A DNA stretch of 64,000 bases, from positions 1-64,000 of the forward strand of contig JAJYMO010000035.1 in assembly GCA_021786845.1 (NCBI GenBank). Reading direction: 5' to 3'. The DNA comes from Pseudomonadota bacterium (GTDB lineage Bacteria; Pseudomonadota; Gammaproteobacteria; Burkholderiales; Sulfuriferulaceae). This document shows positions 12,027 to 39,780 of this stretch, piece by piece. Under the pieces are notes generated by a model. The model made no database searches. It saw nothing but the letters and a program-made list of their open reading frames with translations, and was not told the origin of the DNA. The translations under genes were made by a program, and so were the position numbers. The first letter of the stretch is position 1, and every line of letters begins with the position of its first letter.

Positions 12027-12279
12027 GTGCGCCCGGCAGGGCGCACTTGCCTGGAGGTGAAAGTCCTCTACTCACCCGACAAGGGGAAGAGTTAGCCGAA
12101 CGGCAAGGGTGTCGCGGGCGACTGCGAATCTGGAGGAAGCCTGAGGCAAACGGGATTGGTTTCGTTGCTGGACACCCAGCAACGCTTCCAGCGTGTTGAT
12201 TGAGTGAACCGCCGTATGCGGAACCGCACGTACGGTGGTGTGAGAGGGCGATGGAAGTAATTCCGTCCCCTACTCGATT
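12027..12279 (+). mobile_element. ORF-less, internally deleted group II intron remnant (class C-like)
   Basis: 5' GTGCGCCC start with domain I-like segment; domain V-like ACCGCCGTATGCGGAACCGCACGTACGGTGGT; domain VI-like GATGGAA-GTAA-TTCCGTC followed by CCCCTACTCGAT. Confidence 0.8.
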
Positions 12280-12402
12280 ACGGTAGAATGCTGTTTAGTG
12301 AGTCAAGTTTTGTGTGTGAACACTGTTTGCATGCTTCCGTTTGCTGTTTCTGTATGAGACTCAGCGCGCTCTGTGGATTGGAATGTGATGAGGGATGGAA
12401 TA

Positions 12403-14188: not shown

Positions 14189-14511
14189 AGTCATCTGAAT
14201 TTTGTGAGTTATTCCAAGTCAAACTCTCGTGATCTGTCTGGGCTATATTTCCTTTAAGTTCGACAGGTTCTCAGGGGCATAATGCCGAAATTGCTGAATT
14301 AACCATTTGCCATTTCACTGGAAAAGTACGCGAGCCGCGCAAATCAGATCGCTTCCTGAGACAGGTTGATATCGCTGGCGATCAGTTCATTTTGCCCACT
14401 GCATCATGCTGACAGCAAACGTTTGTCTACCTTAATCTCAACCACCAAAACATCTTCACATTTTCAAAAGTCTATGTTGATACACTGAAACACGGTTTAT
14501 CACCTTTACGT

Positions 14512-32587: not shown

Positions 32588-33945
32588 TGGGCAGAAAATA
32601 TTTCGGTACGGATGGTATTCGTGGTCGGGTCGGTGTTTACCCCATTACACCTGATTTTGTCATGCGGCTGGGTTATGCAGCAGGAAAGGTGCTGGTTCGT
32701 GAGCGTTGTACCCTGAAGCCCGGTGAGCATCCTGTGGTACTGATTGGTAAGGATACCCGTCTGTCTGGCTATATGCTGGAGGCAGCATTGCAGGCGGGGT
32801 TGTGTGCGGCAGGCGTTGATGTGCGTCTTGTTGGCCCTATGCCGACGCCGGCAGTGGCCTATTTAACCAAAGCATTGCGTTTGCAGGCAGGTATTGTGAT
32901 TTCAGCCTCACATAATCCCTATGAAGATAATGGCATCAAATTTTTTTCTTCCACGGGTGAAAAACTGTTGGACGAAATTGAGCGTGCTATTGAAGCAGAA
33001 TTAGAACGGGAATTGGTGACTTTCTCGTCGGCTGAATTAGGCCGGGTGAAACGCATTGATGATGCGCCTGCCCGGTATATTGAATTTTGCAAAAGTACTT
33101 TTCCCTTCGAACAGGATTTGCGGGGTGTAAGGATCGTTGTCGACTGTGCGAATGGTGCGACTTACCATATTGCACCCTCCGTGTTGCATGAGTTGGGTGC
33201 AGAAGTCATTTCTATCAATCATCAGCCCAATGGCACCAATATCAATGACCATTGTGGGGCAACTGATACAGTCCACCTGAGCGTAGCGGTATTGCAGCAT
33301 AAGGCTGATTTCGGCATTGCGTTGGATGGCGATGGTGATCGTGTCATGATGGCTGATGCAAACGGTCGTATATATAACGGCGATCAATTATTGTATGTGA
33401 TTGCTCGCTATCGCAAGGATACTGGAAAACTAAAGGGCGGAGTGGTAGGTACCTTGATGAGTAATTTGGGCTTGCAACATGCGTTAGGGCGATTGGCAAT
33501 CCCTTTTGTGCGCGCAAGTGTCGGTGATCGTTATGTGCTGGAAATGTTGGGTCAACATGAATGGCAGTTGGGGGGCGAGGCATCAGGACATCTTCTGTGT
33601 CTGGAAAAGCACACCACCGGTGATGGCATTATAGCGGCGTTACAGGTGTTGCATGCGCTGCGGGAAACCGGCATGTCGCTGGCTGATTATACGACGGATC
33701 TGTACATGTACCCGCAAACCATGATCAATGTGCAAGTAGACAAACAGGTGGATTTAAAGTCTGCATCGATACAGCAAGCGGTTGTGGAGGTGGAGGCGGG
33801 CATGGGAGACTGTGGCAGGGTGGTATTACGCGCTTCTGGCACAGAACCCCTGGTGCGGGTAATGGTAGAATGCGCAGAGGCAGCACAATCTGCGGCGTAT
33901 GCGGAGCATGTGGTTAAGGCCGTCAGGGCCGCCGCAAAAGGTTAA
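32581..33945 (+). CDS. glmM: Phosphoglucosamine mutase
   Basis: [42 protein letters not shown]. Start 32581 or 32587. Confidence 0.98.
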
Positions 33946-33967
33946 CGCGCCTATTGTTCAATACCTG

Positions 33968-34210
33968 GGAGCCTGTCGGACTTAAAGGAAATCGGCTGCA
34001 AATCCGCCTGATCGGTGCATATTTCACCGCTTTTTTGGTCAATAGAACAACTATTGATCGGCAAAACCGGCAAATGGGGTAAGCAGGCATTTCGCCTTTC
34101 GGCGAAAACTCGCAAAATCTGCCCTCGCCCAGCCGAATTTTGCGAACAGCCGCTTTGCGGCTTGCCTGCTTGAACCACTTCGCTCCGATTCTTCAAGGCC
34201 GACAGGCTCC
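33968..34210. repeat. 243-bp MITE-like element with imperfect terminal inverted repeats and cloverleaf-like core
   Basis: GGAGCCTGTCGGaCTTaAAGgA at left; the right end reads GGAGCCTGTCGGcCTTgAAGaA on the opposite strand; internal nested stems at 34081-34171. Confidence 0.8.
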
Positions 34211-34212
34211 TA

Positions 34213-34305
34213 GGGCTCGTTAATAGATAATTGTCACATACGTTGCTGCATATTCGGGATGGATGCAAGCCTTGCAACGCTGCAGACGCCCGAATACGCG
34301 GCAAT
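34213..34305. repeat. Single-module (half) copy of the 7117-7382 element
   Basis: GGGCTCGTTAATAGATAATTGTCACATACGTTGCTGCATATTCGGGATGGATGCAAGCC...CCCGAATACGCGGCAAT aligns with 7117-7245. Confidence 0.85.
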
Positions 34306-34350: not shown

Positions 34351-35112
34351 TTAGCCGAATTTTCCCGTAATATAGTCTTCGGTTTCTTTTTTACTGGGGT
34401 TGGTAAAAATCACATCGGTGCGGCCAAACTCCATCATTTCACCCAGATACATATAGGCAGTATAGTCTGATACACGAGCCGCCTGCTGCATGCTGTGGGT
34501 CACGATGGCGATGGTGTATTCAGTTTTGAGTTCATGGATCAGTTCTTCGATGCGTGCTGTAGAGATTGGGTCTAACGCGGAGGCCGGTTCATCGAGTAAA
34601 AGCACTTCGGGTTTGACGGCAATGCCACGTGCGATGCAAAGGCGTTGTTGTTGCCCACCTGACAAGCTGTATCCACTTTGTCCCAGTTTGTCTTTCACTT
34701 CATTCCACAGCGCTGCTTTTTTAAGTGCCCATTCAACACGGTCAGACAACTCTGAACGTGACAGTCGTTGATACAGTTTGATCCCAAAAGCAATATTATC
34801 GAAAATTGACATGGGGAAGGGGGTTGGCTTTTGAAAAACCATACCAACCCGGGCGCGAAGATGGTTTAAATCGGTTTTTTTGTCGAGTATGTCGACATCA
34901 TCCAGCAAAATTTTCCCTTCAGCACGTTGCCCCGGATAAAGGTCATACATGCGATTCAAGGTGCGCAACAAGGTGGATTTGCCGCAACCGGAAGGGCCGA
35001 TAAAGGCCGTCACCTGGTTGCTGGGGATATCCAGATTAATATCCTTGAGTGCATGGTCTTTGCCATAGTAAAAATCAACATTGCGCAGACTGAATTTGAT
35101 GTGGTGTGCCAT
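34351..35112 (-). CDS. pstB: Phosphate ABC transporter ATP-binding protein PstB
   Basis: [35 protein letters not shown]. Confidence 0.98.
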
Positions 35113-39695: not shown

Positions 39696-39780
39696 GCCGA
39701 CGTGGTGAAATTGGTAGACACGCTATCTTGAGGGGGTAGTGGCGTAAGCTGTGCGAGTTCGAGTCTCGCCGTCGGCACCA
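39696..39780 (+). tRNA. tRNA-Leu(GAG)
   Basis: GCCGACG...CGTCGGC acceptor stem, ACCA 3' end, anticodon stem CTATC/GGTAG with loop TTGAGGG, GTTCGAGTC T-loop, variable arm. Confidence 0.97.

Follow-up and report, generated by a model that had tools for sequence, protein, structure and literature searches.

Between the convergent genes glmM (ending at 33945) and pstB (on the minus strand, ending at 34351) of a Sulfuriferulaceae genome lies a non-coding unit that a first-pass annotation had described as a 243-bp inverted-repeat element (33968-34210) with a tRNA-like cloverleaf core. This locus, in a 64,000-nt stretch of contig JAJYMO010000035.1 analysed here as a whole (the window), raises the question whether we are dealing with a mobile element, a structured RNA, or a structured RNA carried on a mobile element. 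The helices and the imperfect terminal repeats of that description are all present in their places. The exact span of the element, a complete copy according to both its BLAST family and a covariance model, is 33969-34209 (241 bp), with the conserved fold on the minus strand (referred to as the A strand). Its left terminal inverted repeat is GAGCCTGTCGGACTT (33969-33983, plus strand), identical to the ends of IS1182-family elements, and its right one reads GAGCCTGTCGGCCTT on the minus strand (34195-34209). The 4-nt flanks are CTGG on the left (33965-33968), letters that recur at the corresponding empty site of a close relative (CAATACCTGG), and CTAG on the right (34210-34213), which equals the target-site consensus. 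We consider it likely that the element is a non-autonomous hairpin MITE, mobilised by IS1182-family transposases, in which a fold of about 160 nt has been selected on one strand.

The suggestion that the unit might be a MITE is well supported: it is short, non-coding and multi-copy, shares its terminal inverted repeats with an intact, autonomous IS family, and has clean empty sites in a relative. The own genome (2.19 Mb) yields 21 BLAST matches at about 17 places, with sizes of about 46, 160, 190-199 and 241 bp, common ends and differing internal blocks. At 14247-14273 of the window (minus strand), beside a gene end, the element family has also left a relic with one end only (TTTCCTTTAAGTTCGACAGGTTCTCAG; minus-strand end AACCTGTCGAACTTAAAGGAAA). 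Within the genus the ends occur in 10 of 18 genomes, and one genome (G061) carries about 105 copies, many of them identical. In the close relative G008 (93% identity in pstB) eight of the own-genome loci are without the element, with clean junctions; aligned through the joined flanks, these empty sites contain one 4-mer where the filled sites have two, the net insertion being the element plus 4 bp. The site between glmM and pstB is also empty in G008, its left junction being exact at CCAG/CTGG and its right side too diverged to align.

None of the empty sites in G008 is exactly CTAG, and apart from the 4-mer they consist of continuous, non-palindromic DNA. Among 127 elements retrieved by a search that was not based on CTAG, flanking 4-mers other than CTAG were never equal on both sides and were sometimes reverse-complementary (4 seen versus 0.76 expected), the complementarity ending after 4 bp. 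Except where they read CTAG, the 4-nt flanks differ from what a simple target-site duplication would leave. Stem-loop replacement, as reported for the IS1182-family member IS1272 (PMC5678879), was rejected as the mode of insertion because of the empty sites in G008 and because flank complementarity extends over only 4 bp; unlike IS1272, the element goes into a 4-bp target and replaces no stem-loop.

The ends (CTAG followed directly by GAGCCTGTCGGACTT) also bound IS1182-family transposases in other genomes. Complete partners with the same 15-bp terminal repeats and CTAG flanks were found in Methylotetracoccus (L143; NF033551, E 8e-70, in a split frame), in Endozoicomonas ascidiicola (L148; DUF772 by Pfam, the middle of the transposase at L148:4324-5288 being N-masked so that the gene does not read through) and at a third locus (L428), while incomplete ones are truncated (L432) or cut at contig ends (L431, L427, L435/L448). 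The source genomes of L428, L432, L431, L427 and L435/L448 carry the element too, and a matching transposase is present in several element-rich genomes. In contrast to these IS (NF033551), the element has an unrelated interior and no transposase gene, with no IS1182/DUF772 ORF within 33969-34209; the ends it has in common with them make it an IS1182-type MITE. Judging from these ends, its parent IS belongs to the IS1182 family and is absent from this genome: a BLASTN search for other copies and an intact parent IS, as proposed in the first-pass annotation, succeeded on the former count only, and, as no IS1182 transposase was found in the own assembly, mobility in this genome today has no support. 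The element appears to have been moved in trans by an IS1182-family transposase, as suggested by the shared ends, the complete and partial partners, the empty sites and copy numbers of up to about 105 per genome. IS1182-family transposases would recognise its 15-bp ends and would insert it at CTAG-like tetranucleotides, with 4 bp added. An origin from phages or plasmids was rejected for lack of matches in blastn searches, which covered phage and plasmid records, viral contigs and E. coli genomes.

In a species-level genome collection the same ends turned up in at least 119 stretches; among the matches listed they occur in Gammaproteobacteria, Desulfobacterota, Nitrospirota, Verrucomicrobiota, Spirochaetota and others, paired ends often being exactly 145 bp apart. 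They also delimit further elements of 46-266 bp with unrelated interiors that are still palindromic. These include a multi-copy element of 266 bp (L090:1501-1766, in G005) with CTAG/CCAG flanks and a wholly different palindromic interior, and minimal elements of 46-48 bp (L149:5453-5500, L220:6936-6981 and L343:1337-1384) that consist of the two terminal repeats and a short unrelated hairpin. Every element with these ends is a hairpin, regardless of its interior.

Both strands of the 243-nt unit fold far better than their shuffled counterparts (plus strand -107.5 kcal/mol, z -7.53; minus strand -115.6 kcal/mol, z -7.73; 0 of 200 shuffles as good for either strand), and the part described as a cloverleaf (34081-34171) reaches z-scores of -5.05 as RNA and -5.89 as DNA. 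The significant folding energy that had been anticipated was thus obtained. Since shuffling destroys inverted repeats, such z-scores partly restate that the DNA is palindromic, and compensatory change among copies is the stronger evidence for a fold.

Compensatory change is abundant in an alignment of 53 distinct, divergent elements, oriented by sequence, which represent the ancestral form, a single hairpin of 159-161 bp with three internal loops. The 66 pairs of its structure are present in 90.7% of cells (versus 75.0% when shuffled). Compensatory change on both sides is seen at 51 of these base pairs, and doubly changed cells number 539 versus 171 expected, a value reached by 0 of 500 shuffles. 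The covariation score of 0.454 (shuffled 0.172 ± 0.006) falls to 0.13 if the partner is shifted by one column. Unpaired bases of the internal loops are near-invariant, with GA opposite GCA (loop 1) in 49-53 of the 53 copies and A51, G72 and A100 as further examples. A hairpin TCAATAG/CTATTGA that had been noticed upstream of the cloverleaf does exist, but it is not a separate structure: it forms the tip of the 160-bp core (GGTCAATAG/CTATTGATC, 34036-34060, minus strand) and shows compensatory changes among copies. A length and a fold that stay constant while the letters change point to some function of the folded strand.

Equal arms could also arise passively, if the element were an ordinary MITE whose arms are equalised by template switching (quasi-palindrome correction) or gene conversion, the covariation then being mutational. 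The perfect arms of some copies (L038, L140) and the perfect hairpins of the minimal elements with their unrelated interiors would be compatible with such a process, as would the reverse-complementary flank 4-mers, which resemble arm-to-arm copying. But arm correction would erase internal loops, and here the loops are unpaired and near-invariant across phyla and the length is held at 159-161 bp. Furthermore, arm correction is strand-symmetric, yet G.U exceeds A.C by 3- to 8-fold, and we regard a passive origin of the fold as unlikely.

This asymmetry was seen in several ways. On the A strand, deviations from Watson-Crick pairing comprise 273 G.U versus 74 A.C; if the opposite strand is folded to obtain the structure, the numbers are 221 versus 69 (48 sequences for, 2 against), and with G.U forbidden in folding, single mismatches comprise 117 G.T versus 14 A.C. 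Of the two strands, A gives the better fold in 52 of the 53 elements and in 15 of 16 further copies that are less than 88% identical to them (strand test 19 versus 5). From the covariation and from this excess of G.U over A.C we infer that one strand, the minus strand in the window, has been under selection in single-stranded form. Orientation relative to genes is random (77 left 3' ends versus 70 right 3' ends, in 38 convergent, 29 divergent and 71 codirectional settings), and a replication-strand bias relative to GC skew is not significant (68 versus 93), so that a strand-specific mutation bias would have no obvious source.

Compensatory change above chance together with strand-specific tolerance of wobble pairs is what a conserved RNA would display, and single-stranded DNA would fit too. 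The folded strand might therefore work as ssDNA in transposition, as a hairpin or cruciform seen by the transposase, and this would agree with the hairpin shape of all elements with these ends, with the behaviour reported for IS1272, whose transposase is of the same family (PMC5678879), and with the fact that G.T is tolerated better than A.C in DNA hairpins as well. However, the empty sites reflect simple insertion at a 4-bp target, and the absence of a significant GC-skew bias sets the element apart from lagging-strand single-strand transposons. A role as ssDNA is possible, if rather doubtful, and RNA is our preferred form, even though random gene orientation and the lack of any possible internal promoter upstream of the hairpin leave no obvious regular source of full-length A-strand RNA. 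Under selection on a single-stranded minus-strand copy, the length, pairing and loop bases of the hairpin of about 160 nt would all be held, and the folded strand, most probably RNA, would in what we think the likeliest case aid the spread or tolerance of the element itself and not the neighbouring genes. It could, for example, bind transposase or a host RNA-binding protein.

A benefit for neighbouring genes, such as the convergent glmM and pstB, would be expected if the fold were a cis-acting 3'-UTR or terminator-like RNA. The window copy indeed follows the glmM stop at a distance of 23 nt and is also downstream of pstB, and 38 of 163 copies (loci L001-L424) abut a TAG stop inside the CTAG flank and leave the gene intact. 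The abutment, however, amounts to 38 of 139 versus 18 of 84 at non-coding CTAG sites, with no enrichment left, both orientations relative to genes are about equally frequent, a U-tract is lacking, and G008 does without the element at the same sites; we give this explanation little credit. Even less probable, to a degree that we hardly consider it, is an independent gene for a structured ncRNA, or a tRNA-like RNA, whose position in this intergenic region is incidental. The strong fold would suit such a gene, but the element is mobile and multi-copy with empty sites, and nothing tRNA-like could be recognised: ARAGORN and Rfam RF00005 matched in the window only at 39696-39780, outside the element. 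A scan against Rfam, which had also been proposed, gave no family above the gathering threshold for the element, and a permissive scan returned sub-threshold microRNA-hairpin noise. Elsewhere in the window a group II intron remnant was noticed (12030-12290; Rfam RF00029 at 12207-12278, with intron-like sequence upstream).

The cloverleaf itself, at 34081-34171 on the minus strand, coincides with the predicted minimum-energy fold, a four-way junction, and occurs only in the 241-bp subfamily. The 199-bp form gained one block of about 40 bp, whose hairpin lies next to loop 1, and in the 241-bp form a second block was added that is nearly the reverse complement of the first, so that AAGCAGGC/GCCTGCTT pair and enclose three hairpins. 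The window copy would thus be a derivative in which one arm of the long hairpin has gained two complementary insertions. Covariation in the junction is modest: among eight copies, cells with two-sided change number 8 versus 2.8 expected (2 of 500 shuffles reach 8) and pairing amounts to 93.8% versus 90.9% shuffled, with two-sided change in four pairs, few of them independent. The idea of a fold conserved by compensatory change is supported, but that the cloverleaf is its functional core is not. The junction, maintained or recent, is younger than the hairpin and a lineage-specific add-on in some copies of this genus, and what is conserved widely is the entire hairpin of about 160 bp with its three internal loops.

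A covariance model (R1) built from the 53 elements recovers the window copy with 49.1 bits (E 9e-11) on the minus strand and 20.1 bits on the plus strand. Within the order it has matches in 40 of 300 genomes and 26 of 139 genera, and within the phylum in 37 of 398 sampled genomes, or about 9%, the own genome included. Metagenome bins among the matches may hold misassigned contigs, and strong matches are also found in named records of Sulfuricella, Extensimonas, Dyella, Halomonas, Massilia, Nitrosomonas, Endozoicomonas, Desulfobulbaceae and Nitrospirales. According to record titles, the length of 159-161 bp is fixed across Gammaproteobacteria (including Burkholderiales), Desulfobacterota and Nitrospirota.

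Like our element, the Correia/NEMIS elements of Neisseria, ERIC of enterobacteria and REP/BIME are short intergenic palindromes able to fold once transcribed. They differ from it in ends, target and host range, sequences having been compared through Rfam only, and the REPs require a Y1 (RAYT) transposase. The interiors of MITEs are usually regarded as meaningless and MITEs themselves as decaying IS ends. Like bacterial MITEs in general (compare PMC3852290), the element is short, non-coding, bounded by terminal inverted repeats, high in copy number and IS-like only at its ends; its interior, in contrast, is constant in length and carries a covarying fold on one strand only, both retained over very large divergence, across phyla and in up to about 100 copies per genome. 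Neither Rfam nor the literature searched contained a description of the family, and none of the papers searched linked an element of this sort to IS1182. One oligonucleotide match, in PMC11077965, concerns a primer close to Geobacter omcE. The elements form a MITE family that matches no described one and whose conserved fold is specific to one strand. It is tempting to speculate, although we would not put this above a minor chance, that it is a parasite of transposons whose strand-specific folded RNA, of about 160 nt, is a cargo needed for its own spread, for instance by capturing IS1182 transposase in trans, and has carried the fold across phyla. The fold makes it testable whether non-autonomous bacterial elements recruit transposase via folded RNA or ssDNA, and R1 finds such elements by structure.

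Another palindromic repeat, of about 110 bp (GCAGCAATGAGGTCACCGGCCTTCAGGCC...CGGGGTTTTA), lies some 30-150 bp downstream of the element in L004 and in the right flank of L016, and recurs dozens of times in G008, G005 and G015.
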